Notes under the pieces: model-generated | Databases searched by the model: none | Told to the model about the DNA's origin: nothing | What the model saw: the letters and a program-made list of their open reading frames with translations, nothing else | Origin: Acetatifactor sp. | GTDB lineage: Bacteria > Bacillota > Clostridia > Lachnospirales > Lachnospiraceae | Length of the DNA stretch: 64,000 nucleotides | Direction: 5' to 3' | Assembly: GCA_022511465.1 (NCBI GenBank) | Contig: JAFLRM010000005.1 | Location: 39,663 to 103,662, forward strand | Program-made: the position numbers and the translations under genes | Shown here: positions 2,686 through 62,075 of the stretch, one piece after another | Numbering within the stretch: position 1 is the first letter of the stretch | Layout of the letters: every line of letters begins with the position of its first letter

Positions 2686-4695
2686 CTATCTTCCAGCACA
2701 CTCCCACACCCCAAACTTCTCGTTGCGAAAAGTCTGTTCGTATCCGTACTCTCGCATAAACTCCACGATCAGCTGCCACTTGGCATCCTCCTCCAAGGGC
2801 ATCAGATCCTCCGGCAGCGGCTCGGCCGCTCCAACGGTCAATCCTAACTCGGAAATCGGTTCCAAATACCGCACACACTTATTCTCCATAATGATAACAG
2901 GGCGATAGGAGGCATCTTCTGCCATCCGAACGCGCATTTCATCCATTGCCTGCTCCATAGCTTCCAGACTGTAGGACTGCAGCTCGCTCCATATGTTAAA
3001 CGCGGCCGGTAACTGCAGATAGTAGGCCAGGGCCGGAATCCCATTGGGTCTCCCATCACGACGAAGTCCCGCATATAGGATCACATCGCTTCCAGTAAGT
3101 CCCCGCTCCCCCACATAAGCGCTGATCGAGCTTAGCCACTCTGCCCGCTCCGGATCCATCTTTATTCCCCTCAAAATCTCATTGTTCTCCACTTTGGCAG
3201 TGACATTCTGCACACCGGTGGCCTCCGCAAAGACAAAGTAGGTGCCAAAGAGAACACTCTGCACCAGAAAAAGCGCAAGAAATGCGCACAAAGTCCCCTT
3301 CACCGGAAAGGAACAGATCGTGATCTGCTTCCACTTCCAGTCCTTCACTCCTCGCACAAACCGCCAACTCTCCCACAGCGTGTAGGGTGCCGCCACGAAC
3401 AGATTGTTTATGCTTGGGTAGAGCTTATTGTTACTTCCAATAGAAGTGATAAGCACTACAAGGATCACCAGTCCACTGATCAGCTTCTCTCTTTTGTCGC
3501 TGCCTCGGTGAAAAATACGAATTCCCGCAATTCCCATGGTCAACAGCAAAAACAGGACTCCCGGCCGGTACATGGGACCGTAGGTGTAGAGGACCAGGTC
3601 ACAAAAACCCCTGTCATACAGCCAGACCAACATGGCCACATCCACACCACACCACAAAATGCGTACGCCCAACCGAAGTACTACCGCCATCTGCTCTCCA
3701 TTCGCAGAATTTGTATTCGCCGCACGCTTCTTTCCCCAGTCAAGCAACCATTCCACCAGACCAAAAAAGAGAATTCCCACCACAACAATAAACAGGATCC
3801 GGACTCCCCAATACATCATATGATCTACATACTCGTAGATCATGCCATAGAGCATGGAAGTCGCCTTGTAGTCCGTGGCGTTGTCCGTCATGGCAAACAG
3901 CCGCCCAATGCCTGCAATATAATTGTCCAATCCGTATCGGATGTGGATATAGCCAAAAAGCGCCGCCAGAGCGCTCAGATAACCGCTCAGGCACCACAGA
4001 GTGCGGCGGAATGTCCTGCCCCAGGCGGACGAGCCATCTCTTTTCTCCCTCGTTTGTTTCCGAATTTTTCTCTCCTCCAGCCACTCGATCACGCCAAAAG
4101 CCCACACTGCCACGATCAGCGCTGCCTCCGGCAGATTGGAGAACCTCACCAGCACATTGCTCCCCAGACAGACTCCTGCCGCATACAGGCACCACTTCTT
4201 TTCCTTCGTCAGTCCCACATACAAAAAGGCTACACAGGCAAGGAGCAGCACATAAGTCAGATAGTTGTACAGAAGAGCCGTAGGGCACCAGCAAAGACTG
4301 ATCGCCGCAAGCTCCCCCAAAAACGTGATCCATCCGTAAATCTGAAGCTTCCGCGTGGCAAAGAAATACCCCACCACTGCCAGCACACTGACAAACAGAC
4401 CGGTGTAAAAATTCATTCCCTTTAACGTCCCCGCAAAGGGGAGAAGGGTCAGAAAATGCCCTACCCCGTTGGCCAGATAGGTAGAATATAACCACATGGG
4501 ATCCATGTGATCCAGTCCCATATATTGAAAGTTGGCATAGTTGTATCCCGTGTCCCAAAGATCCAGTCCCCAGCCGATATGGCGCAGGGGGTACAGGGTC
4601 AGGATCAGGACAGCTACGGTTTCCCACACTATTTTATTTTTCAGAATTGTGTCTTTTTGTCTTTGACTGTTTTGCATGAAACTCTTCCCGCTCAA
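2686..4695 (-). CDS. Multi-pass membrane protein, probable GT-C-type glycosyltransferase
   Basis: 669 aa, many hydrophobic segments and a C-terminal soluble domain; GT-C assignment is by overall architecture only. Confidence 0.55.
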   Translation of the reverse strand: MSGKSFMQNSQRQKDTILKNKIVWETVAVLILTLYPLRHIGWGLDLWDTGYNYANFQYMGLDHMDPMWLYSTYLANGVGHFLTLLPFAGTLKGMNFYTGLFVSVLAVVGYFFATRKLQIYGWITFLGELAAISLCWCPTALLYNYLTYVLLLACVAFLYVGLTKEKKWCLYAAGVCLGSNVLVRFSNLPEAALIVAVWAFGVIEWLEERKIRKQTREKRDGSSAWGRTFRRTLWCLSGYLSALAALFGYIHIRYGLDNYIAGIGRLFAMTDNATDYKATSMLYGMIYEYVDHMMYWGVRILFIVVVGILFFGLVEWLLDWGKKRAANTNSANGEQMAVVLRLGVRILWCGVDVAMLVWLYDRGFCDLVLYTYGPMYRPGVLFLLLTMGIAGIRIFHRGSDKREKLISGLVILVVLITSIGSNNKLYPSINNLFVAAPYTLWESWRFVRGVKDWKWKQITICSFPVKGTLCAFLALFLVQSVLFGTYFVFAEATGVQNVTAKVENNEILRGIKMDPERAEWLSSISAYVGERGLTGSDVILYAGLRRDGRPNGIPALAYYLQLPAAFNIWSELQSYSLEAMEQAMDEMRVRMAEDASYRPVIIMENKCVRYLEPISELGLTVGAAEPLPEDLMPLEEDAKWQLIVEFMREYGYEQTFRNEKFGVWECAGR

Positions 4696-4753
4696 TCTGC
4701 CACTTTCTCATTCTTCAGTCATAACGTGGCTTTTATTAAATATCAGTCGTTAT

Positions 4754-5908
4754 TTACCCCCGAAACAGCTCGTCCACGGCATTGACCTTATCTACCACAA
4801 AGCGATAGGGGCTCAGATGAAGCAGTCCCCTGTGAAATGTTCTCATAAGAACGGCCCGTGCCATATCTACCAAAACACCCACAATAAACACAACTATCAC
4901 TGCAAACAGCGTCCGCAGAAGAAGTTCTGCCACACTTTGGATCCGACCGGCTCCAAACCACAGCTGCCACTGGTAGCGCACACCCATGTTTTCATGAAGC
5001 AGATACACTCCTAGTGTGTAGGGTGCAATGCGATTGACCGATTCGGTCATTTTCTTCGGCAAACGGATCAAGCGGAACACACCGAACATTCCCACCGAAG
5101 CTAAAAAGGGAAGAAGGTGATTATATTCAATAGGCACCTTGATAATGTGCTCCAAACTGCCCGTCCTAAGATACAGCAGCCTGAGTGCCATAAGCTCCAC
5201 AAAGGTCGCCGCACAGCCCAATAGATACAGACAGAGTGCTACCCCTTTTCTCTTAAGGAAAGGAACTCCAAAACGCCGGATATAGGCCGCCGTCATAAAC
5301 ACACACAGATACCACAAGACATCGTAACCCTGTCCATCCATCTCCAGTCTGGCAGGAAGGATGGATTTGAGGAGGCAGAATGTAAAGAGCAAAAGACACA
5401 ACACCGCCTTTATCTGCTGCCTGCTCATGCTGCGCGCCGCCATGCCAACTAACGGCAACAGCAGGTATAAGAACACGTACGCTGTCATAAACCAGTAATG
5501 TCCCATGATCACCGGAAAACCCAGGGTGAGCAGATAGTGAATGCTAAACTCCTCCGCGGGATAAATGCCAAAGCCGGCCGCAAGAAGTCCCACAGCCACT
5601 GAGTACACCCACACTTGCAGATAGAGACCAATCAGCCTGCTCAGCTTGAAGGAGGAAGTACACAGAAAGTAACCGCTGATCAGCATATACACATTCACGG
5701 CCACAATGCAGAAAATCTCCAGCACCCACGCTGCAAATCCCACACTGCCCATAGATTCCTCCGACAGATTTCCCAGAATGTCGCCTTTTCCCAGAAAGTG
5801 CAACACCACTACCATCATCATTGCCACACAACGGAGAAGCTCCAAATTCGCCATGCGGGGCCTGCTATTTTTTGCCCTTTCTACACTTATTTCCTCAGAC
5901 ATACTCAT
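4754..5908 (-). CDS. Acyltransferase 3 family membrane protein
   Basis: N-terminal RMANLELLRCVAMMMVVVLHF typical of acyltransferase-3 proteins; start placed at MSMSEEIS, preceded by AGAGG. Confidence 0.8.
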   Translation of the reverse strand: MSMSEEISVERAKNSRPRMANLELLRCVAMMMVVVLHFLGKGDILGNLSEESMGSVGFAAWVLEIFCIVAVNVYMLISGYFLCTSSFKLSRLIGLYLQVWVYSVAVGLLAAGFGIYPAEEFSIHYLLTLGFPVIMGHYWFMTAYVFLYLLLPLVGMAARSMSRQQIKAVLCLLLFTFCLLKSILPARLEMDGQGYDVLWYLCVFMTAAYIRRFGVPFLKRKGVALCLYLLGCAATFVELMALRLLYLRTGSLEHIIKVPIEYNHLLPFLASVGMFGVFRLIRLPKKMTESVNRIAPYTLGVYLLHENMGVRYQWQLWFGAGRIQSVAELLLRTLFAVIVVFIVGVLVDMARAVLMRTFHRGLLHLSPYRFVVDKVNAVDELFRG

Positions 5909-6033
5909 AAACGCCTCTTTTATATCCTCATATTTTTGATAGGAAATTGACTTTGCACCCTTTCTCATTATTCTAGCATGCGGCCAACAATATGTCATTT
6001 ATTTTTTCTGGGAATAGAAATTAAAGATTTAAA

Positions 6034-6066
6034 GGCGCGGACTGTCTCTTGACAGCCCACGCCTTT
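6034..6066 (-). terminator. Terminator-like hairpin after gltD
   Basis: Minus strand GGCGTGGGCTGTC-aaga-GACAGTCCGCGCC followed by TTTAAATCTTT. Confidence 0.6.
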
Positions 6067-6084
6067 TTTGTTTGCACTACGCTT

Positions 6085-7578
6085 TTACTGCACCACCAGA
6101 TTGGAGTAACCCATCAGGCTCTCGTCCACTGCTCTGGCGGCTTCTCTGCCCTCGCGGATCGCCCACACTACCAAAGATTGACCCCTGCGCATATCACCGG
6201 TGACAAACACATTGTCCACGCTGGTCTGGTACTTGCCAGCCTCAGTCTTTACGTTGGTACGCTCATTAAGTTCCACGCCGAAGGCCTCTGTTACATACTT
6301 CTGAGAACCTAGGAAACCGGCCGCGATCAGCACGATCTCTGCGTCCAGAACCTTCTCGCTGCCCGCGATCTCCGACATCTTCATACGTCCTGTGTCGGGA
6401 TCCTTCTCCCAGTTCAGCCGCACGATCTTCACACCTGTCAGATTGCCCTTCTTATCCTTGATAAACTCCTTCACGGTAGCCTCGTAGAGACGGGGATCCT
6501 GGCCGTACACCGCGATGGCCTCCTCATGTCCGTAGTCCGTCTTGCAGACCTTGGGCCACTCGGGCCAAGGGTTATCCTCCGTACGTTTGTCCGGCGCCTT
6601 AGGCATCATCTCCAGAAGGGTCACGGACTTTGCGCCATGGCGGATGGAGGTACCCAGACAATCGTTGCCGGTATCTCCGCCGCCGATGATCACCACGTTC
6701 TTACCCTTGGTATCCACATACTGCTTATCTGTAAAGTCAGAGTCCAGCAGGCTCTTGGTGTTGGCCTTCAGGAAGTCCACCGCAAAGTAGATTCCCTTTG
6801 CGTCCCTGCCGGGAGCACTTATATCTCTGGGGTTGGAGGCGCCACATGCCAGGATCACGCGGTCAAAATCGTGAAGCAGCTTATCTGCCCTTACATCCTT
6901 GCCCACGTCAGCGCTTGTGACAAAGGTCACACCCTCCTCCTCCATGATCTTCACCTTGCGGTCTATCACATGCTTCTCCAGCTTCATGTTGGGGATGCCG
7001 TACATAAGCAATCCTCCCACGCGGTCGGAGCGCTCAAATACTGTCACACTGTGTCCTCTCTTATTCAACTGATCTGCAGCCGCCAGTCCGGAGGGACCGC
7101 TTCCAATGACAGCCACCTTCTTGCCGGTGCGCACCTTGGGCGGCTTTGCGGCCGCATACCCCTCCGCATAGGCGTTCTCAATGATGGCGTACTCGTTCTC
7201 CTTGGTGGAGACCGGATCCCCGTTCAGTCCACAAGTGCACGCCGCCTCGCACAAGGCGGGACATACGCGGGAAGTGAACTCCGGAAAGTTGTTGGTCTTC
7301 TTCAGACGATTGTAGGCCTGCTGCCAGTTACCGGTATACACCAGATCGTTCCACTCGGGCACCAAATTGTGCAGGGGACATCCGCTGGCCATACCACAGA
7401 TCATCATGCCTGCCTGACAAAAAGGTACACCGCACTCCATGCAGCGTGCACCCTGAAGCTGTTGCTTTTCCTTAGGCAAATGCTCATGGAACTCATTAAA
7501 GTGCTTGATCCTCTTCTTTGGATCCTCAGAGATACTGACTTCTCTTTTATAATCCATAAATCCAGTTGGTTTTCCCAT
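6085..7578 (-). CDS. gltD: Glutamate synthase small subunit
   Basis: 497 aa; CMECGVPFC, GSGPSGLAAA and GGGDTGNDC motifs. Confidence 0.95.
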   Translation of the reverse strand: MGKPTGFMDYKREVSISEDPKKRIKHFNEFHEHLPKEKQQLQGARCMECGVPFCQAGMMICGMASGCPLHNLVPEWNDLVYTGNWQQAYNRLKKTNNFPEFTSRVCPALCEAACTCGLNGDPVSTKENEYAIIENAYAEGYAAAKPPKVRTGKKVAVIGSGPSGLAAADQLNKRGHSVTVFERSDRVGGLLMYGIPNMKLEKHVIDRKVKIMEEEGVTFVTSADVGKDVRADKLLHDFDRVILACGASNPRDISAPGRDAKGIYFAVDFLKANTKSLLDSDFTDKQYVDTKGKNVVIIGGGDTGNDCLGTSIRHGAKSVTLLEMMPKAPDKRTEDNPWPEWPKVCKTDYGHEEAIAVYGQDPRLYEATVKEFIKDKKGNLTGVKIVRLNWEKDPDTGRMKMSEIAGSEKVLDAEIVLIAAGFLGSQKYVTEAFGVELNERTNVKTEAGKYQTSVDNVFVTGDMRRGQSLVVWAIREGREAARAVDESLMGYSNLVVQ

Positions 7579-7614
7579 TTTCTCCTCTCATTCTGCCGCT
7601 TTAGCGACTCTAGC

Positions 7615-10600
7615 TCATTTTCTCGTGTTGGCATAGAATGCTTCGATCTGTGCCTGCTCCGCGCTCAATCCCTTTTCCTCCATCTGCACGATGGTCTTTA
7701 AGACTCTCTCGTAGTCGTGAGGAATGATCTTCTTAAACTTGGGCAGATACTCGTTAAAGCTATCCAGGATCTCCTTGCCTTTTGCGGAGTTGGTCAGGGC
7801 CACATGCTCCTGGATCATGCTCTTCAGCTCCATCACATCATATTTGGAGGTAATCTCAGAGGAGGAAACCATCTCTTTGTTCAGACGCTTATAAAGGTCG
7901 TTATCCTCATCCAGCACATAGGCGATACCGCCGCTCATACCTGCTGCAAAGTTCTTGCCGGTGCGGCCAAGGATCACCACGCGGCCGCCGGTCATGTACT
8001 CACAGCCATGATCACCGACACCTTCCACCACTGCGTATGCGCCGGAATTTCTCACACAGAAACGCTCGCCGGCCACACCGTTAATGAACGCCTTGCCGCT
8101 GGTGGCACCGTACATTGCCACATTGCCGATAATAATGTTCTCATCCGCCTTGAATTTACTTCCCTTGGGCGGATATACGATCAGCTTGCCGCCTGAGAGA
8201 CCTTTTCCAAAGTAGTCATTGCTGTCTCCCACAAGCTCCAGCGTCAGCCCTTTGGGGATAAATGCACCAAAGGACTGTCCACCCGCGCCGTTGCACAGGA
8301 TGCGGTAAGTGTCTTCCTCCACATCGCTGCCCAGCTTGCGGGTAATCTCACTTCCCAAAATCGTTCCGAAGGTGCGGTCCGTGTTGGATACGTCCACCTC
8401 AATACTTCTCTTCTGCCCTGCGTTTATCGCTTTTCCAAGCTGCTTTAACAGCACTTTCTCATCCAGCGTCTTCTCCAGTTCAAAATCGTACACCTGCTTG
8501 GGATCGAAGGTTACCTTCTCGCTGGTTCCCTCGTAGGGGTTTGCCAGAATCTGAGACAGATCGATCTGCTTCTGGCTGGGACTCAAGTTCTCCTTCACTT
8601 TTAAAAGGTCGGTTCTTCCCACCAGCTCATCCACAGTCTTCACACCCAATTTGGCCATATATTCGCGGAGTTCTTCCGCAATAAATTTCATAAAGTTCTC
8701 CACGTACTCCGGCTTGCCCTTGAAATTCTTGCGTAGCTCCGGATTCTGAGTGGCAACACCCACCGGACAGGTGTCCAGATTGCAGACTCTCATCATCACG
8801 CAGCCCATGGTCACTAAGGGGGCGGTGGCAAATCCGAACTCCTCAGCGCCCAGCATCGCCGCAATCGCTACATCCCGGCCGCTCATCAGCTTTCCGTCCG
8901 TCTCAATGCGAACTTTGTTACGCAGTCCGTTCATGATCAGGGTCTGGTGGGTCTCCGCAAGGCCCAGTTCCCAGGGGAGGCCCGCGTTATGGATGGAAGT
9001 GCGGGGAGCTGCTCCGGTACCGCCGTCGTAACCGGACACCAGAACCACCTGCGCGCCGGCCTTGGCAACACCCGCGGCGACAGTACCCACACCTGCCTCC
9101 GACACCAGCTTTACAGAAATACGGGCATCTTTATTTGCATTTTTCAGATCATAGATCAACTGCGCCAGATCCTCAATGGAGTAAATATCGTGATGAGGCG
9201 GCGGAGAGATCAGGGACACACCGGGGGTGGAGTGTCTGGTCTTGGCGATCCAGGGGTATACCTTGCCTCCAGGCAGATGCCCTCCCTCGCCGGGTTTCGC
9301 ACCCTGGGCCATCTTGATCTGAATCTCCTTAGCACTGACAAGATATCGGCTGGTGACGCCAAAACGTCCGCTGGCCACCTGCTTGATGGCGGAGCACCGA
9401 TCCAGCCCGTCAGGGCCTACGGTCAGTCTCTCAATATCCTCACCGCCCTCTCCGGAGTTACTCTTTCCGTGCAGGCGGTTCATGGCGATCGCCATGGTCT
9501 CATGGGCTTCCTTGGAGATGGAACCGTAGGACATGGCTCCGGTCTTAAATCGGGTGACGATGGACTCCACCGACTCAACCTTCTCCAAGGGCACTCCCTT
9601 CTCCGGGTACTTAAAGTCCATCAGCCCTCTCAGGTTCTTGATGGAATTCTCGTCGTTCACCATGGCGGTGTACTGCTTGAACATACCGTAATCACCGCGC
9701 TTGGTGGACTCCTGAAGCATATGAATGGTGGCGGGATTGTACAGATGCTCGTCGCCACCGCTTCTGGACTTGTGATGTCCGGGGCTGTCCAGAGTCAGGT
9801 CGCTTGCAAGTCCCAGCGGATCAAAGGCCATGGAATGCAGATCGTCCACATCCTTCTCGATATCCTTAAGAGTAAGACCGCCCACGCGGCATACTGTATT
9901 GCTAAAGTACGCGCTGATCACTTCCTCTGCGATGCCGACGGCCTCAAACAGCTGGGAACCACGGTAAGACTGAATCGTGCTGATACCCATCTTGGCAGCG
10001 ATCTTGACGATCCCATGAAGCACTGCATAGTTATAGTCGTCAACCGCCGCATAGTAATCCTTATCCAACATGTGATTGTCCACCAGCTCCTTGATGGACT
10101 CCTGTGCCAGATAGGGGTTGATCGCGCAGGCACCATAGCCGAGCAGCGTCGCAAAGTGATGTACCTCTCTGGGCTCTCCGGACTCCAAGATCAGGGAGAC
10201 CCTGGTGCGCTTCTTGGTGCGGACCAGATACTGGTTCAGGGCGGACACAGCAAGCAGGGACGGCATGGGCACATGGTTCTCATCCACCCCTCTGTCGGAG
10301 AGGATCAGCACATTGGTACCTTCACGATATGCGCGGTCCACTTCCACAAAGAGTCTGTCTATTGCTCTCTCCAGACTGGTATTCTTATAATAAGTAATGG
10401 GAATGACCTCGACGTGGAAGCCTTCCACCTTCATATTCTTGATCTTCAACAGGTCCGTGTTGGTCAGGATCGGATTGTTGATCTTAAGCATATTACAGTT
10501 TTGTGGTGACTCCTCCAGCAGATTCCCATCTGTTCCCACGTAGACCGTCGTGGAGGTCACAATCTCCTCACGGATACAGTCGATGGGCGGATTGGTCACC

Positions 10601-12428: not shown

Positions 12429-14279
12429 TTACTCCTCAAGGAAAATGTTTATTTTTTTATTTAGCGGCCACAGAGTATATCCAATGGCTGACAAAATCCC
12501 CACCCAGGTCATGGTAAGAAACAGTCGCGCCTCCCTCAATGCAGGCATTCCCCAGTAGGATATTCCTGTCAGAAGCTGTCCACTTTCCGGTTCTCCATTG
12601 ACGGACAGTCCTCCATACTCTGCCAAAGGCATTTCCCCGTTGTCTGTCACCCAGACATACACCGGCTGTTCCGTCTCCTTAATCTCCACTGTCAGCCGGT
12701 AAGTTTCTCTGGGATTCAACTTCCATTTCACATCGCGCCTCTGGTAATTACTTTCCCCAAACTTTTCCACCTGATATATCTCCTGATACTCCAGAGTATC
12801 TCCTCTCCACAGGGAAACCTCACAGTATCCCGTTTCACCACTGCTCTCCAATCCAATATTGAAACCTCGGATCTCCCCAAATGTGGGAGAAAAACTCGTC
12901 TCCAAAAATTCATCTTTTGCCATGGAGATCCTTCTAAATTGTGCCTGACCATTTAAAACAGACAACTCTTCGCGGGCTGTCCTGCCCAAAGGCACCGACA
13001 CCGCCATCACCAAAAGAAGCGCCCCTGCCAACACAAGCCGCCTTCGAAGCGGTACTCTGCGTGGTTTTCTCACACCGGAAACACTGCCAAGCACCATTGC
13101 CAGAAACGCCAGTATACTCACTCCAAAAATGCGGTAGGTAAAATAGTTATGTCCTCTAGTGTGATTACTCAGCACGAAGTACCACACCACGCTGGACAGA
13201 CCTATCAGCAGATATGCATATCGCTTTGTATCCCTGCGCGATCCACCCAGATACAGGGGGCGGCATATCCACCAGATGAGCCAGACCGCAAGGATCCAGG
13301 CATACACCTTGTACTGATAGTGCTTCCAGTTGATGTAGATCGCCTGAAAACGCTCTTCCAGACTTCCGTCCCCCTGCATACCGGAGCGAAAGAAGACCTC
13401 GTTGATCGCACTCTCAAAAATATTGCGGCCCAAGACCACTGTAGCCAATGTCCACTTCATGATCCACAGTCCTGCATAGCCCACGATCCAGCTGATACCG
13501 GAAAATATCACCTCCCGGACCCACACACTCTCTTTCCGTTCAGCCGGATCCATCACCAGCCACCACACCAGGGGGAAGCCCCATGTAAACAGAGGGTATG
13601 TCAGAAGATCAAAATAGCAGGCCGCCATTCCCATTGCCATGAAGAAAAAGATATATCTCGATCTTATAGCAAAATAGTCACGCTTCCATAAAAGTATTAA
13701 AAGACCTGCATAGGCCACATAAAAAATCCAACTAAACTGCAGGGACAATGGCAGCGCAACAGGCATGAGCAGCATGTAGGAAGTGAGAAACATGATCACA
13801 TACCGCATCCCTTTTTCTCTGCCGATGAGAAATACTAACGAAAACACCAACAAAAGCTGAATCGCGCAATTTACTACACGAAACTCCTTGTAGTCAAACA
13901 GGAGCATTAATGGCCGAAGCAGGGAAACATATCCATGCCAATAGTAGGTATAGCCTCCTCCCTCCAGATTATAAGCCTCCATAGCGCGCTTCAGAGGATC
14001 CCCGCTGCTGTTGTCAAAGGCAGTGTATAACATAACAGCATCCGTTGCACTATCCAACCCATCCGGCATTAAAAAGGAATTGTAATGGTTCTCATAACGT
14101 TCCCCGGAAACCACCGCCCGGGTATAACGTCCCTCCTCTGCTAACATTGTATATGTGGAAGCGCGGTTTTTCTCATTGATCGGAAGCATATACGCCAATG
14201 TCAAAAGAATTGTTGCAATAAAGGTTCCTGCCAAAAGAACCAGAAGGCCTTTACCAACTATTTTTCCTATGTCTCTCAT
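12429..14279 (-). CDS. Multi-pass membrane protein of unknown function with C-terminal extracytoplasmic domain (paralog of next gene)
   Basis: 616 aa; closely resembles the adjacent 14304..16181 product along its whole length. Confidence 0.75.
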   Translation of the reverse strand: MRDIGKIVGKGLLVLLAGTFIATILLTLAYMLPINEKNRASTYTMLAEEGRYTRAVVSGERYENHYNSFLMPDGLDSATDAVMLYTAFDNSSGDPLKRAMEAYNLEGGGYTYYWHGYVSLLRPLMLLFDYKEFRVVNCAIQLLLVFSLVFLIGREKGMRYVIMFLTSYMLLMPVALPLSLQFSWIFYVAYAGLLILLWKRDYFAIRSRYIFFFMAMGMAACYFDLLTYPLFTWGFPLVWWLVMDPAERKESVWVREVIFSGISWIVGYAGLWIMKWTLATVVLGRNIFESAINEVFFRSGMQGDGSLEERFQAIYINWKHYQYKVYAWILAVWLIWWICRPLYLGGSRRDTKRYAYLLIGLSSVVWYFVLSNHTRGHNYFTYRIFGVSILAFLAMVLGSVSGVRKPRRVPLRRRLVLAGALLLVMAVSVPLGRTAREELSVLNGQAQFRRISMAKDEFLETSFSPTFGEIRGFNIGLESSGETGYCEVSLWRGDTLEYQEIYQVEKFGESNYQRRDVKWKLNPRETYRLTVEIKETEQPVYVWVTDNGEMPLAEYGGLSVNGEPESGQLLTGISYWGMPALREARLFLTMTWVGILSAIGYTLWPLNKKINIFLEE

Positions 14280-14303: not shown

Positions 14304-16181
14304 CTATGAAGATCTATTCCCCAGCTGTGACCACAGCACATACTCAATTGTTATCAAGACTCCTATCCATGTCATAACAAGAAACAGACGCCTCCATTTG
14401 GAAACGGGCATGTACCAATATGTGATACCTGTGAGCAACTGTCCTTCCACTCGGACTCCGTCTATTGAGAGCGCACCATATTCCGTAAGAGTCATGGCAC
14501 CATTATCCGTCACCCAGACATAGATCGTCTCCTCCGTATCTTTTGCTTCCACTGTCAACCGATAGGTAGTTTTGTGATCTAACTCCCATGTCACACCTTT
14601 CAATTGGTAATTTGAATCACCAAAGTCTTCCAATGGGAAACGTTCCTGATATTTGGGAATATCTCCTTCCCACAGAGTTAATTCGCAATACCCTGTATCC
14701 CCCGTGCTTTGCAGTCCAATATTAAAACTAAGCAGCTTGTCAAAGGTAGGCGAAAACTCTGCCTCCAAAATATCATCTTTTTCCATTGGGAACTGAGTAA
14801 ATTGCTCATAACCATTTAAAACAGTAAACTCTTCTCGTGTCAAATAGACCGGCAAAATAGCGACCACTCCGGTTACCAAATATACACCACACAATAACAA
14901 CCTCTTTCTAAAAGACATTTCTATCCTTACTCCGGCTTCCGGGATGCTTCCCAATACAATAGCAAGAAAAGCCAGCACGCTCACTCCAAAGATACGATAG
15001 GTAAAAAAATGATGTCCCGATGTATGGTCTGACAGCACGAAGTACCATACGATGCTGGATGCCCCTATCAGGAGATACGAACAACATTTTGATCCTCGAT
15101 GTCCTCCCCGAACTAATAAGCACCCCAGCCACCATACTAACCACAACAACAGGATTATCGCGTATACCTTGTATTCATAGTGCTTCCAATTTATATAGAT
15201 CGCCGACAATCGATCTGATAGGAGACCTCCCCCCTGCATCCCTGAGCGCAAAAAAACCTCATTGATAGCAGATTCAAAGATATTGTGACCCAAAATAACA
15301 GTGGCCAACGCCCACTTCATGATCCACATGCCTGCATATCCCGCAATCCATCCAAAGCCGGAAGTGACTACACGCTTGACCCAGAAGCCCGCCTTTTGAT
15401 CCGTTCGGTCCATTACGATCCACCATATCAGTGGGAACCCCCAAGTGAACAGCGGATAAGTCAAAAGGTCCAAAAAACTGGTAGCCATTCCCAGCGCCAT
15501 AAAGATAAAAACATATCTCGCCTCCTTGGCAAAGTAACTATATTTTTTCAAAAGGATGATCGCGCCGACGTAAGCTACATAATACACCCACGAGAATTGA
15601 AACGACAAGGGCATGGCGATCGGCGCCATAAGCATGTAGGAGGTCAAAAGCATAAGCACATACCTAAGCCCCTTTTCCCGACCAATGATAAAAGCAAGGA
15701 TCAGCAGCAGTATCAGTTGAACGGCACAATTTGCAATTCTCAGCTCCGTAAAGTCAAACAAAAGCATAAACGGTCTGAGCAATACGACATAGCCATGCCA
15801 ATAGTAGGAATAATCCCCCATTGTTGCATTATGTCCTTTCATCGCACGAACCAGCGGGTTCCCTTCACTGGAATCCAATGCTGTCCTCAGCATGATGCCA
15901 TCAGTGGAATCATCCAGAACATCCGGCAAATAGGAATGGAAGTGTGTATCCATTGAACGGCTTATTACGGCTGCCCGCGGATACCACCCTTCTTCCTCCA
16001 GTGTATCATAAGAAGTCTTCCTATTCTGCGGATTGACCGGCAGCATATACACTAATGTCAGCAGTACCGTACCGATGACAGTTCCTGCCAAAAGGAGCAG
16101 GAGACCCTTGCCAGCGAAGATTCCCATTCTCCATGACTCCCCTCCTCCTGTTTGTTTATGACTCGCAGTTTGTCTCTTCAT
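14304..16181 (-). CDS. Multi-pass membrane protein of unknown function (tandem paralog)
   Basis: 625 aa; shared blocks such as YYWHGYV.LLRP.MLLFD, SYMLM.P.A.PLSFQFSW, VILGHNIFESAINEVFLRSGMQG. Confidence 0.75.
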   Translation of the reverse strand: MKRQTASHKQTGGGESWRMGIFAGKGLLLLLAGTVIGTVLLTLVYMLPVNPQNRKTSYDTLEEEGWYPRAAVISRSMDTHFHSYLPDVLDDSTDGIMLRTALDSSEGNPLVRAMKGHNATMGDYSYYWHGYVVLLRPFMLLFDFTELRIANCAVQLILLLILAFIIGREKGLRYVLMLLTSYMLMAPIAMPLSFQFSWVYYVAYVGAIILLKKYSYFAKEARYVFIFMALGMATSFLDLLTYPLFTWGFPLIWWIVMDRTDQKAGFWVKRVVTSGFGWIAGYAGMWIMKWALATVILGHNIFESAINEVFLRSGMQGGGLLSDRLSAIYINWKHYEYKVYAIILLLWLVWWLGCLLVRGGHRGSKCCSYLLIGASSIVWYFVLSDHTSGHHFFTYRIFGVSVLAFLAIVLGSIPEAGVRIEMSFRKRLLLCGVYLVTGVVAILPVYLTREEFTVLNGYEQFTQFPMEKDDILEAEFSPTFDKLLSFNIGLQSTGDTGYCELTLWEGDIPKYQERFPLEDFGDSNYQLKGVTWELDHKTTYRLTVEAKDTEETIYVWVTDNGAMTLTEYGALSIDGVRVEGQLLTGITYWYMPVSKWRRLFLVMTWIGVLITIEYVLWSQLGNRSS

Positions 16182-16527: not shown

Positions 16528-17342
16528 TATTCCTGCTTTATCCTGTGATAGATTCTCTCTTTCAGCCAGTGATAGCCACCAGAGAAAAAACTATTTTCCG
16601 CCAGAAAACTCCTGAGAGGCGCAAATGTACACAACATAAATAACCGATACCGCAAAAGCTCTCCCGCACTCATATAGGTGGAGGTAATCTGTCTGTGTTC
16701 TTCACGATCCCTATCATGATTCCTTTTATCTTCCGAAACGCCCCCGCCCTCGTAAGAAGACACGGCCATGCCCATATGGATCATTTTCGCCTTTTTGATA
16801 TAATAGCACCACAGAAAATGATCATAGTCCGCCCGAATACGATATTGCAGATCATAGGGCTTCTCTTTGCAGAGCGCCGCACTATAAAAACAGGACTGAT
16901 GACAGGGAATGTTGCGGTAACAGGTGAGACCGGTGATGCGTCCCGCCGATGCGATCATCGTCTGATTTCGGGCGCTGTAGGTATCCCCATAGAGTACCAG
17001 ACCATTCACATCCGCTCCTGCAGCAGCCTGGGACTCTACAGCCTCCGCTGCCCGCTCCAGAACCTTCTCATCGTAGAAAAGATCTCCGCAGTTTAAAAAC
17101 AGGAGAAAATCTCCCCTCGCGTGAGCAACCGCCTGATTCATGGCGTCGTAGATTCCCTTGTCCGGCTCTTTGAACAGACGTATGCAGTGGTCTTGCCTCA
17201 TCTCTTCTATGGATCTGTCGCAGCTTCCCCCATCCTTCACCACAATCTCATACTCCGTATAGGTCTGTGAAAGGATGCTGTCCAAGGTTTGATTTAATTT
17301 TTCTCCCGCATTCAAGCACACTATAATAATCGAAAATCTCAT
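16527..17342 (-). CDS. Glycosyltransferase family 2
   Basis: FSIIIVCLNAGEKLNQTLDSILSQTYTEYEIVVKDGGS and LNCGDLFYD motifs. Confidence 0.9.
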   Translation of the reverse strand: MRFSIIIVCLNAGEKLNQTLDSILSQTYTEYEIVVKDGGSCDRSIEEMRQDHCIRLFKEPDKGIYDAMNQAVAHARGDFLLFLNCGDLFYDEKVLERAAEAVESQAAAGADVNGLVLYGDTYSARNQTMIASAGRITGLTCYRNIPCHQSCFYSAALCKEKPYDLQYRIRADYDHFLWCYYIKKAKMIHMGMAVSSYEGGGVSEDKRNHDRDREEHRQITSTYMSAGELLRYRLFMLCTFAPLRSFLAENSFFSGGYHWLKERIYHRIKQE

Positions 17343-18868
17343 AAGACCTTTTTCCTTTTATTCAGGAAATAGATACTTCCCACTCCGATCACCATAAAGA
17401 TCACACACACTGGCCAGCTGACAAGCTCTCCCACCGCCAAACCGGTGTAAGACAGACAGTAGGACAGAATATTGGAGATCATGTGGATCGCAAGCGGCAG
17501 GCAAAAAGTACCAAAATACTCATAGCTATAGGCGATCAAGCAGCCCATGATAAAAGCATAACCTCCCTGTACCGCATTTCCATGGTAGACGCCAAAGACA
17601 AGCGCCGACAACACTACTGCCAGTCTTATATTGAGAAATCGCCTCATGTAGGAAAAGATCACACCTCGGAACAAAAGTTCCTCCGCGATCGGAGAAATGA
17701 TACCGTAACAAAAGATGCCGATCAGAAAATGGGCAGAATACTGATCTTCCACCACCGCCTGATACACCTCTGACTTATTCGTAACGCCGGACAGTTCCAG
17801 CAAAAGATTCAGGCCGATGACCGCACCCACAGTCGCCAGCCCTATGAGCAGATAATTCTGAACCGGCTCTGCTTTTAAATGTGCCAGCTTTGTCTCCTCC
17901 TTCGTCATATCGATCAACTGCTTCGCCGTTCCCCAGATAGGAAGAATACCCACAATAAATCCCACTGCAGTCATAAGAGTGGTGGCATTTCCGGTATAAG
18001 CGATGATCTCGCCGGTCTCATCCTTTACGATCAGAAAATCACCGACCATTCCCTGCAGACCGGGGCCGATCTGGAGCAAGAGCCAATTTAACGCATACAT
18101 GGCTATATTTCGAAACAAAAGAAACATGATAAAGCAGTAAACCATTGTCCAGATCCGCTGGGCCATGGGGTTCTTCTTTGTCGGCTGCTCCTCCTTTTGC
18201 ACCTCATCGCTTCCGCGGAGCAGAAACTTCTGCAATTCCCCCACGGAGCGCACAATATAGTCAGCCTTAGCCTCCTTCAACTCCTCCATACTGCCGTAAC
18301 CATAAGTGACACCGACACTCTCCACGCCAAGGGCATCGGCCCCCTCCACGTCGTAGCTGCGATCACCGATCATATACACCTCTTCCAACGGTATCGGCTG
18401 ATCGCCAAAGAGACGGTCTAATGCCTCACGTACTACTTCTTCCTTCCGGTCTCTGGTTCCGTCCAGTTCGCTTCCCACTACCACCTGAAAATACTTGTCT
18501 ATCTGAAAATGTTCCAGGATCCGCTTTACAAACACTTCCGGTTTGCTGGAAGCCACCGCCAGATGCATTCCCTTAGACTGCAGAATACGCAGCATTTGAG
18601 GGATGCCGTCGTACACCTCATTCTCAAAAATGCCCGTGTCCTGAAAACGCTCACGGTACTTTGCCACAGCCGCTTCCGCCTGCTCAGGCGAAAGCCCATA
18701 AAACTTCTGAAAACTCTCTCTGAGCGGCGGCCCGATAAAGGGCTCCAGCTTTTCAAGATCCGGTTCCTCAATGCCGAAATCTCTCAGCGCATACTGCACA
18801 CAGGTGGTAATCCCAACCTTGGGATCTGTCAGCGTACCGTCTAGATCAAAAAGCAAGTACTTCTTCAT
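17339..18868 (-). CDS. HAD hydrolase (phosphoglycolate phosphatase-like) fused to a CPBP-family intramembrane protease
   Basis: N-terminus MKKYLLFDLDGTLTDPKVGI...MIGDRSYDVEGA (HAD); C-terminus AEELLFRGVIFSYMRR...VYHGNAVQGGYAFIMG (CPBP). Confidence 0.85.
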   Translation of the reverse strand: MKKYLLFDLDGTLTDPKVGITTCVQYALRDFGIEEPDLEKLEPFIGPPLRESFQKFYGLSPEQAEAAVAKYRERFQDTGIFENEVYDGIPQMLRILQSKGMHLAVASSKPEVFVKRILEHFQIDKYFQVVVGSELDGTRDRKEEVVREALDRLFGDQPIPLEEVYMIGDRSYDVEGADALGVESVGVTYGYGSMEELKEAKADYIVRSVGELQKFLLRGSDEVQKEEQPTKKNPMAQRIWTMVYCFIMFLLFRNIAMYALNWLLLQIGPGLQGMVGDFLIVKDETGEIIAYTGNATTLMTAVGFIVGILPIWGTAKQLIDMTKEETKLAHLKAEPVQNYLLIGLATVGAVIGLNLLLELSGVTNKSEVYQAVVEDQYSAHFLIGIFCYGIISPIAEELLFRGVIFSYMRRFLNIRLAVVLSALVFGVYHGNAVQGGYAFIMGCLIAYSYEYFGTFCLPLAIHMISNILSYCLSYTGLAVGELVSWPVCVIFMVIGVGSIYFLNKRKKVL

Positions 18869-20432: not shown

Positions 20433-23120
20433 TCAAAAAGGCTTATCTATCATCTTATCATAAAAACTCTGGGGATGCAATGCATCCACCGCCTCCTTCA
20501 GCCCCTGTGCAGACATACGGATGGCCCCGTCTCCCCATATGATCATCTGCTCCATCCGGTCGGAGGTGGCCACCGTAATATTGGCTTTGTTTGCCATTTT
20601 ATGCACCGTCTTCTCAATATACTGATCCGCCGTCTCCGCCTCCCTGGTGTACACCACATAAATGTTGTAGACCTGAGTCACTGAGCCGGGATTTCCCTTC
20701 ACCTTGTAGGCGTCAAACACCAGGATCAGTGTGCAGCCCAGGTACCCCTGATAATTGCACATAATGTCGATCAGCCGGTCTCTGGCACTGTCGATATTGT
20801 CAGCTGCCAAAGCTCTCAGTTCTTCCCACGCAAAGATAATATTGTAGCCGTCCACCAAAAGATAATCTTCTCTCTTCTCCTGTACCTTGGGCCGGAACTC
20901 CCGCTCCCACGTGCCCTGCTTTGATCGGTGTACTTCCTGATAGCGCTTGTGGTAGCGCCGGAAGCGGTTCTGCGCCTCCTGCTCCTTGTTTTTTCCGTAT
21001 GTCTTGGCAAAAATCGCCTCAATCTCCTCCTGTGTGATATAGTCGGAGACACCGGAATGTCTTTCCTTCTCCCGCTGCCTCTGTCCCATGTCTATGGCGC
21101 AGGCTGTCGCTTCCTCATGGGCATTCTGCCCTAACTCCTCCGCATCGGAAAGCTTCGGCAGACGAAGCCGGCTCTCCACATGCGCGTACTGTGCCACTTG
21201 ATGCCAGTCCACATAGAAGCCTGCACCGTGAGAGCAGAACACCGAACCACAGGGGTTGGCAATGTCCAGATCCGGATCATACTGCCTCTCGGCAATGACT
21301 TCCTCACTGTTGTGACAGGGCTCATACCCTTTCAGGGTACAGGTCAGCCGGCCCCGCCCCTTGGCATAGGCATTTACCTCCCTCTGATAATCCCTCATGG
21401 CAGCCACCGGTGCACTGCCGGTCAAGATACTGACATCCCCCTCCGTCACCGGCGGGTCAAAGGTGCCAAACATCCTCTGGATATCCGACATAGCCCGGCC
21501 AATATACTCGGTAGGCAGTTCCAGGATAAAAGAAAAAACCGGCTCCAGCAAAATGCTCTTGCTGCGGCGAAGCCCGTGTCTCACCGCGCGGTAGGTCGCT
21601 TGCCGGAAATCTCCTCCCTCCGTGTGCTTCTCGTGGGCTCTTCCCGCCACCAGAAGGATCCGCATATCCGTGATCTCGGAACCCGTCAGCACACCGGCAT
21701 GAGCTCTCTCCTCCAAATGGGTCAGGATCAGTCTCTGCCAGTTTCTGTCCAACATGTCCTCACTGCACAGGGAAGCAAACTGTAAGCCACTGCCCCGTTC
21801 TCCCGGCTCCAAAAGCAGATGTACCTCTGCGTAGTGACGAAGCGGCTCAAAGTGCCCGATCCCCTCCACCGGCTCTGCAATAGTCTCCTTGTATACAATG
21901 CTGCCGGCGCCGAAAGTGACATCCAGCCCAAAACGCTCTCGGATCATGCTCTTTAAGATCTCAATCTGTACTTCGCCCATGACCTGAACCTGAATCTCTT
22001 TGCTCTCCTCACTCCAGACAATGTTAAGCTCCGGTTCTTCCTCTTCCAGCAGCCGCAGATAGCCAAGCGTCTGTATGGGGTCACAATTCTCGGGCGGGAT
22101 CACCTGATAGACCAACACCGGCTCCAACACCGGCAGTTCGTTTTCCCTCTCAGCCCCAAGCCCCTGACCGGCAAAGGTGGATTTCAGTCCCAGAACTGCA
22201 CAGACGCCCCCGGCGGGCACTTCGTCCACTGCCTGATATTTTGCTCCATTGTAGACACGCAGTTGGTCTGCCTTCTCTTCCCATACGTCACCCTCTTGCC
22301 CGGCGCTCCCGGCGTTACTGACAATCTGCTTCACACACAGACTCCCGCCAGTCACCTTCAGATAGGTGAGCCGATTGCCGGACTCGTCTCTCGCGATCTT
22401 GAATACCCGGGCTCCAAACTTCTCCTCATATGTGGGAATCGGCGCAAACTTACGGATACCGTTTAAGAGTGTCTCCACACCCCACAATTTCAACGCTGAG
22501 CCAAAGTAGCAGGGAAATATCTGCCTGTCCGCAATAGCCGCTACAATACTCTCCCCGTCCAGTTTCCCATTTTCCAGATATTCCTCCATCAGAGACTCCT
22601 GACACAGGGCGATGCTCTCCAACAGCGAAGCATCCAACTCCTCCGCAAACTCCACACAGTGCTCGTCCAGGCGCATCTGAAGTTCTTTCAGCAGCTTATC
22701 CTTGTCCGTACCCTCTTGATCCATCTTGTTCACAAACAAAAAAGCGGGAATCTCGTAGCGCCTAAGCAGCTTCCACAGGGTCTCCGAATGTCCCTGCACA
22801 CCGTCCGCCCCATTGATCACCAAAACCGCCGCATCCAAGACCTGAAGCGTCCGCTCCATCTCCGCACAGAAGTCCACATGGCCCGGCGTGTCCAGAAGAG
22901 TGATATCCAGATCTTTCCAGGCAAGTTCTGCCTGCTTGGAAAAGATAGTGATACCCCTGTCCCTCTCCAGGGAAAAGTTGTCCAGAAAGGCGTCCCCATG
23001 ATCCACTCGCCCCAGCGAACGGATCTTGCCGCAGGTATAGAGAAGCCCCTCTGCCAGCGTGGTCTTGCCGGCATCCACATGGGCCAGTATTCCAATTACC
23101 AATCTATCGTTTGGCTGCAT
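20433..23120 (-). CDS. TetM/EF-G-like translation-factor GTPase with C-terminal YacP/Rae1-like NYN endoribonuclease domain
   Basis: AHVDAGKTT, RGITI, DTPGH, NKMD at the N-terminus; C-terminal DYLLVDGYNIIFAWEEL...ARDRLIDIMCNYQGYLGCTLILVFDAYKVKG...TREAETADQYIEK...VATSDRMEQMIIWGDGAIRMSA matches the YacP family. Confidence 0.9.
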   Translation of the reverse strand: MQPNDRLVIGILAHVDAGKTTLAEGLLYTCGKIRSLGRVDHGDAFLDNFSLERDRGITIFSKQAELAWKDLDITLLDTPGHVDFCAEMERTLQVLDAAVLVINGADGVQGHSETLWKLLRRYEIPAFLFVNKMDQEGTDKDKLLKELQMRLDEHCVEFAEELDASLLESIALCQESLMEEYLENGKLDGESIVAAIADRQIFPCYFGSALKLWGVETLLNGIRKFAPIPTYEEKFGARVFKIARDESGNRLTYLKVTGGSLCVKQIVSNAGSAGQEGDVWEEKADQLRVYNGAKYQAVDEVPAGGVCAVLGLKSTFAGQGLGAERENELPVLEPVLVYQVIPPENCDPIQTLGYLRLLEEEEPELNIVWSEESKEIQVQVMGEVQIEILKSMIRERFGLDVTFGAGSIVYKETIAEPVEGIGHFEPLRHYAEVHLLLEPGERGSGLQFASLCSEDMLDRNWQRLILTHLEERAHAGVLTGSEITDMRILLVAGRAHEKHTEGGDFRQATYRAVRHGLRRSKSILLEPVFSFILELPTEYIGRAMSDIQRMFGTFDPPVTEGDVSILTGSAPVAAMRDYQREVNAYAKGRGRLTCTLKGYEPCHNSEEVIAERQYDPDLDIANPCGSVFCSHGAGFYVDWHQVAQYAHVESRLRLPKLSDAEELGQNAHEEATACAIDMGQRQREKERHSGVSDYITQEEIEAIFAKTYGKNKEQEAQNRFRRYHKRYQEVHRSKQGTWEREFRPKVQEKREDYLLVDGYNIIFAWEELRALAADNIDSARDRLIDIMCNYQGYLGCTLILVFDAYKVKGNPGSVTQVYNIYVVYTREAETADQYIEKTVHKMANKANITVATSDRMEQMIIWGDGAIRMSAQGLKEAVDALHPQSFYDKMIDKPF

Positions 23121-23212
23121 AGCTTTGATTCCTTTTGTTTGTGTATCTATTTTCGTCCTTGACAGTTCCCCCGCCTCGTATTATAGTAGTGGATGCAACT
23201 ACATAATCTATC

Positions 23213-23384
23213 ACACCGCTAGGGGAGCACATCGCTGAGATTGAGGCAACCGCCTCTAACCCTCATCACTTGAACCGGTTAATACCGGCGTAAGGAAGCA
23301 GGTTATTTCCTTGGGAGACAGATTTCGCATGCCCCCCAGGAAGTACGATGTCGTCCCTCCTTTAGCAGAAAAAGGAGGTTTTTT
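23213..23384 (+). promoter_or_regulatory. TPP (THI-box) riboswitch with terminator/SD expression platform
   Basis: aggggagc...CTGAGA...acccTcatcacTTGAACCGGTTAATACCGGCGTAAGGAAG (23221-23300). Platform hairpin CCTCCTTT-agcagaa-AAAGGAGG + T6 at 23356-23384. Confidence 0.93.
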
Positions 23385-53335: not shown

Positions 53336-53438
53336 CCGACCTTCCGGGCACCACAAAAACATGGTGCCCAGACGGTCGGCTTTTCTTCTAACTACACTCC
53401 CCGTGGGTGATCCCACTCTTCCGTCAGTTGTGCAGTTT
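53336..53438 (-). ncRNA. ZTP (pfl) riboswitch with expression platform, upstream of purO-purH
   Basis: Minus strand AACTGCACAACTGACGGAAGAGTGGGATCACCCACGGGGAGTGTAGTTAGAAGAAAAGCCGACCGTCTGGGCACC. P1 AACTGCAC/GTGTAGTT; core ACUGACG, GUGGGAU, CACGGGGAG and CCGUCUGGGC match the pfl motif. Confidence 0.9.
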
Positions 53439-53496
53439 CTATCTATTATCTTACATGTTTCACCGTGTTTTGGCAAGACCCGGAGAAATATTTCTA

Positions 53497-61805: not shown

Positions 61806-62075
61806 GAACTGTGGCAGGTTCACCAAACAGAACCGTGGCAGGTTCGCCAGGCAGCAGTATACCTTCACAGTCAGGCTTCGCCAACCACATTTTTCTAATG
61901 TGGCGAAGGCAAGATTTCTGTAAGCTGCGGGACGGAAGCAGGGCGGCATCCATGCCGCATGCTTCCTCACACGGACATCGTGTCCGTGTGCCCTGATGTG
62001 CGGTCGCCACATAAGAAAAATGGGTCGGCTACACAAATGACTGTGAGGGTATACTGCCGCCTGGCGAACTGTCCC
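61806..62075. repeat. Inverted-repeat, multi-hairpin intergenic element (MITE/REP-like)
   Basis: Left arm GTTCGCCAGGCAGCAGTATACCTTCACAGTCA... from 61842; reverse complement of right arm GTTCGCCAGGCGGCAGTATACCCTCACAGTCA... from 62069. Internal hairpins at 61934-61966 and 61968-61990; 24-bp direct repeat x2 at 61806-61853. Confidence 0.75.

Follow-up and report, generated by a model that had tools for sequence, protein, structure and literature searches.

A translational GTPase fused to a Rae1/YacP-type NYN domain as a putative ribosome-associated endonuclease of Lachnospiraceae and other Clostridia

The window (the whole stretch of 64,000 nt from Acetatifactor sp. that was analysed) carries at 20433..23120, on the minus strand, one uninterrupted ORF with an ATG start and 895 codons for amino acids, in which an EF-G-like GTPase is fused to a YacP-type NYN domain. 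A Shine-Dalgarno-like AAAAGGA was read from the sequence 9 nt upstream of the ATG (23130..23136), and this and all further features of the gene are on the minus strand. The G domain (aa 7-226; 22443..23102; Pfam PF00009, GTP_EFTU, 3e-51) has the motifs AHVDAGKTT, RGITI, DTPGH, and NKMD. It is followed by domain II (aa 235-319; 22164..22418; PF22042, EF-G_D2), domain III (aa 333-404; 21909..22124; PF14492, EFG_III), domain IV (aa 407-520; 21561..21902; PF03764, EFG_IV), and domain V (aa 524-605; 21306..21551; PF00679, EFG_C). Domains I, III, IV, and V exceed the Pfam cut-offs, and domain II, with 26.8 bits, falls just below its cut-off of 27 bits. Next come a structured C-terminal extension with the signature SVFCxHGAGFxVxW (aa 606-650; 21171..21305), a flexible linker (aa 651-750; 20871..21170) with a short conserved helix inside it (aa 697-708; 20997..21032), and the NYN_YacP/Rae1-type endonuclease domain (aa 751-882; 20475..20870). 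The initial annotation had described an uninterrupted ORF with all TetM/EF-G GTPase motifs and a complete C-terminal NYN domain; the ORF and the Pfam search confirm this, and each of the three domains it named (GTP_EFTU, EFG_IV, and NYN_YacP) was found in the protein.

Divergent from the fused gene, a TPP riboswitch (23211-23313, plus strand) lies upstream of a thiamine-transporter-like ORF. On the minus strand of the window there are also a 509-aa ORF that, by eye, resembles a fusion of a HAD-type phosphatase with a CPBP/CAAX-like membrane protease (17339-18868), a neighbouring pair of membrane proteins that are paralogous to each other and have no evident identity (616 aa, 12429-14279, and 625 aa, 14304-16181), a ZTP riboswitch (53359-53441), and a TwoAYGGAY RNA motif (61873-62036). 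Elsewhere in the genome, canonical EF-G was recognized as a fragment only, in a 65-aa frame on contig C54 (G000:C54:120872-121045). A true absence of canonical EF-G from this genome was considered and rejected, as the fragment probably points to an assembly gap.

The NYN_YacP profile (PF05991) matches aa 754-882 with 156 bits (1.1e-45; cut-off 24.6), covering 131 of its 166 positions, and the C-terminal tail of stand-alone YacP is absent. The crystal structures 5mq8 and 5mq9 of B. subtilis YacP match the same domain over residues 2-131 (1.3e-28). Residues D7, N10, D53, D81, and D104 of B. subtilis YacP, which by comparison with the PIN/NYN family would be the catalytic residues of Rae1, are invariant in the alignment of 110-111 fused and 28 stand-alone proteins; their equivalents in the window protein are D757, N760, D803, D832, and D854. 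The nuclease reading of the initial annotation depended on conservation of the catalytic aspartates across homologs, and they are conserved throughout the fused set. Identification of the fused domain as a nuclease of the Rae1/YacP type is well supported at the level of sequence. In the NYN tree, the fused domains group with clostridial stand-alone YacP; the number of columns is too small for a precise placement of the donor of the fused NYN. When at least 35 residues after S120 of YacP were counted as a tail, a tail was present in 28 of 28 stand-alone proteins and in 69 of 111 fused proteins, the expression used for the tail end being crude. Rae1 is a translation-dependent A-site mRNA endonuclease in B. 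subtilis (PMC6613710, PMC10100781), and R166P, near its C-terminal end, behaved as a loss of function (PMC6613710). The GTPase may take over the role of the tail that is missing from the window protein.

With its G1-G4 motifs and the catalytic His, the window protein belongs to the translational GTPase superfamily. The G1-G4 motifs are invariant in an alignment of 61 homologs, the P-loop and DTPG being found in 61/61 and the catalytic His81 in 60/61. The closest curated family is NCBIfam tet_protect (NF012153), where the window protein reaches 422.8 bits against a cut-off of 775; unfused relatives and a plasmid copy score 381-450 bits, and a true Tet control (L244) 892 bits. It is also below threshold in the EF-G family TIGR00484 (324 bits, cut-off 659). 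In the GTPase tree, which came from a quick search and has some long branches, the fused proteins come out as one clade (SH-aLRT 99), in which the plasmid copy, which is without NYN, is included as well. This clade is sister to 24 unfused GTPases of about 655 aa (SH-aLRT 91), and both groups together are set apart from TetM/O/W and related Tet proteins (SH-aLRT 84). The nearest named relative is from an uncultured Lachnospiraceae MAG (L138). The tree is compatible with a single origin of the fusion. Fused and unfused members share the domain-IV loops GHFEPLRHYAEV (aa 422-433 of the window protein) and KHTEGGDFRxA (KHTEGGDFRQA, aa 498-508; both within 21561..21902), where TetM/O/W have NPFWASIGL and YYSPVSTPADF. 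They also share the SVFCxHGAGFxVxW extension, at which the unfused proteins terminate. Family score, phylogeny, and loops all bear out the earlier opinion that this is probably not a tetracycline-resistance gene.

An AlphaFold2 model computed with 61 sequences has a mean pLDDT of 84.6 and a pTM of 0.65. The GTPase module is confident up to about residue 645, with a pLDDT of about 92 up to residue 650, and the NYN domain is confident at 751-881. Between them, pLDDT is below 50 at 656-695 and 709-747, flanking the helix at 697-708. The model predicts both modules to be rigid and the roughly 90 aa of linker between them to be flexible, and the moderate pTM fits modules that have no fixed placement relative to each other. 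Linker length in 61 homologs is 69-153 aa (median 89). A regular expression for the linker helix caught only 17 of 61 homologs and was replaced by column conservation, according to which E699 and I703 are conserved in at least 90% of homologs. A Foldseek search with the model returned EF-G structures on top.

Hundreds of genomes carry the fusion, so a chance joining or an assembly error is ruled out. Among 150 genomes sampled from the family, YacP was found in 137, usually within a frame of about 850-1,095 aa, while 13 were without YacP; about 83% of the sampled genomes have the fused gene. Among 293 genomes sampled from the class, YacP was found in 192 and a close relative of the GTPase in 122, as a fusion in 103 and unfused in 19 (fused, unfused, and stand-alone counts for the class were tallied by hand from the YacP and GTPase search tables). 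Named carriers include Lachnospiraceae, Oscillospiraceae, Fusibacter, Anaerovorax, Butyrivibrio, and Ruminococcus flavefaciens. One genome (G055) has a fusion with a diverged GTPase, two (G033 and G119) have what resemble frameshift-broken fused genes, and in another (G081) the gene ends at a contig edge. No conserved neighbour genes or co-transcribed partners were found around 34 fused genes.

The sole YacP of the window's genome, which is reported as 100% complete, is the fused copy. Stand-alone YacP is present in 4/103 class genomes with the fusion and in 89/190 without it (Fisher p = 2e-16, to be read as a description rather than a test, because the species share ancestry and are not independent). 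The initial annotation had held that a stand-alone Rae1 always coexisting with the fusion would speak against its reading; in the survey, a second YacP accompanies the fusion only in the four genomes G269, G323, G357, and G430. In relatives with stand-alone YacP, the ancestral position of the gene is as a rule cysS-mrnC-rlmB-yacP-sigH. In the window's genome, rlmB adjoins sigH, their aligned parts lie 42 bp apart, and the yacP slot is empty; seven other family genomes with the fusion (L125-L130 and L135) likewise have no room for it. G430 retains the ancestral yacP in the rlmB-sigH slot and has the fusion at another place, while G005 and G054 have no GTPase and a stand-alone YacP in the ancestral slot. 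The best explanation of these sequence data is that the fusion has replaced stand-alone Rae1 across much of Clostridia.

The unfused sister GTPases of about 655 aa (e.g., L224 and L231) have the domain-IV loops and C-terminal extension of the fused proteins and differ in the absence of linker and NYN. In the family, an unfused GTPase occurs as a separate gene in 6 of 8 genomes with clearly stand-alone YacP and in 0 of the 13 without YacP. A strict co-occurrence of the two genes is true for the family but was rejected class-wide, where the association is weak (13/89 vs 6/101, p = 0.055) and six genomes have an unfused GTPase without any YacP, which suggests that the GTPase module can work alone. 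The plasmid copy in the fused clade lies at 5995-7914 (plus strand) of a Ligilactobacillus salivarius plasmid (L218, NZ_CP062072.1), near an IS1380 transposase, and it too suggests that the module is able to function alone. Its annotation is that of a TetM/TetW/TetO/TetS family resistance protein, yet it scores half of the family cut-off. Natural variants of the fusion, with the G domain and NYN kept and domains IV and V undetectable, are L256 in G115 (690 aa; 2858-4930, minus strand) and L072 in G149 (5940-8726, plus strand).

The architecture was already reported in 2015, before Rae1 was described (2017). Atkinson 2015 (PMC4342817) noted, in ten Clostridiales species, 'Tet proteins' that carry an additional NYN RNase domain, for which a role as rRNA RNase or in resistance was suggested, and one fused protein is named 'translation factor GTPase family protein' in RefSeq. 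The initial annotation had thus rightly supposed that the architecture may already be in databases. No functional study of the fused protein was found in the literature searched, to which the primary Rae1 papers (EMBO J 2017; RNA Biol 2018) did not belong. The fusion is real, widespread, and previously glimpsed; the evidence for the fused protein as the Rae1 of this lineage is new from the present analysis.

Compared with known systems, the fused protein shares with Rae1/YacP the NYN domain, the full catalytic set, and, as a rule, the presence of one YacP per genome, but it carries a GTPase, its gene is outside the cysS-mrnC-rlmB-yacP-sigH cluster, and the window protein, like 42 of 111 fused proteins, lacks the C-terminal tail. 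With TetM/TetO/TetW it shares the EF-G-like domains and a C-terminal extension, but it has half of the curated score, other domain-IV loops, and a position in another clade, and the gene is common in the family and without a resistance context. EF-G and EF-G2 have the same fold and GTPase motifs and are the best Foldseek and PDB sequence matches, but with only about 25% identity and without the family-specific domain-IV loops, the extra C-terminal extension, and NYN. The proteins of Atkinson 2015 have the same architecture; they were filed there as Tet, whereas in the present analysis the fused proteins form a clade outside TetM/O/W and appear to have replaced Rae1.

The fused protein is probably a self-delivering, GTP-gated, ribosome-associated mRNA endonuclease that replaces Rae1. 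The initial annotation had already considered such a factor for mRNA cleavage or ribosome rescue, a reading that the present analysis supports in part. EF-G and Tet proteins put domain IV into the A site, the same site as that of Rae1. Domain IV and NYN cannot share one A site, and a sequential or two-ribosome model is therefore needed. In the sequence of events proposed, the GTP-bound GTPase module would dock at the factor site of a ribosome that is stalled or slow and has an enterable A site, and domain IV would probe or clear that site by its family-specific loops. GTP hydrolysis would then withdraw domain IV, and NYN, on its flexible tether of about 90 residues, would enter the vacated A site and cut the mRNA there; the truncated mRNA would lead to decay and ribosome rescue. 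Ribosome binding, A-site cleavage, GTP gating, and this order of events are suggested by analogy with the biology of Rae1 and of EF-G/Tet proteins. Since variants without domains IV and V exist, probing by domain IV would not be universal.

Maturation of rRNA or tRNA by NYN, with the GTPase making the protein a factor of ribosome assembly or quality control and not an mRNA endonuclease, agrees with what was predicted early on for NYN domains (cited in Atkinson 2015, PMC4342817) and with the position of stand-alone yacP next to mrnC (23S maturation) and rlmB (23S methylation). It is nevertheless unlikely, as reports on B. subtilis Rae1 describe an enzyme that acts on translated mRNA, in the A site, and the fused gene is no longer in the mrnC-rlmB neighbourhood. 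Protection of the ribosome from tetracycline or another A-site drug, with an RNase step added by NYN as proposed in Atkinson 2015, is rather improbable: the score of 423 bits is far from the cut-off of 775 and from the 892 of a real Tet protein, the clade is distinct from TetM/O/W, and the gene is present in most of the sampled family genomes with no conservation of neighbours, even though tet_protect is the closest curated family and the transposase-linked plasmid copy, nested in the fused clade without NYN, carries a TetM/TetW/TetO/TetS annotation. Loop III, which is KHTEGGDFR and not YYSPVSTPADF, also differs, but this is not decisive because SPV-to-AAA mutants of TetM loop III remain active (PMC4750697).

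The GTPase could also be a mere tether that docks the protein on the ribosome, with the nuclease not gated by GTP hydrolysis. A long flexible linker and the occurrence of variants without domains IV and V would agree with such an arrangement, but conservation of all G motifs and of the catalytic His in nearly every homolog, and of the G motifs even in the variants without domain IV, makes it quite improbable.

The self-delivering, GTP-gated A-site nuclease, if generalized to a replacement of Rae1 across much of Clostridia that would imply a general coupling of Rae1 to a translational GTPase, is a tentative proposal, with the balance somewhat against it. As a natural covalent link of an EF-G-type factor to an A-site nuclease, the fusion would make the access of Rae1 to the A site directly testable. 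If the proposed function is true, a widespread gene of gut Clostridia labelled as elongation-factor-like or tetracycline-resistance-like would encode a nuclease of ribosome surveillance, and any survey in which the fusion or one of its close relatives is scored as a tet gene would be in error.
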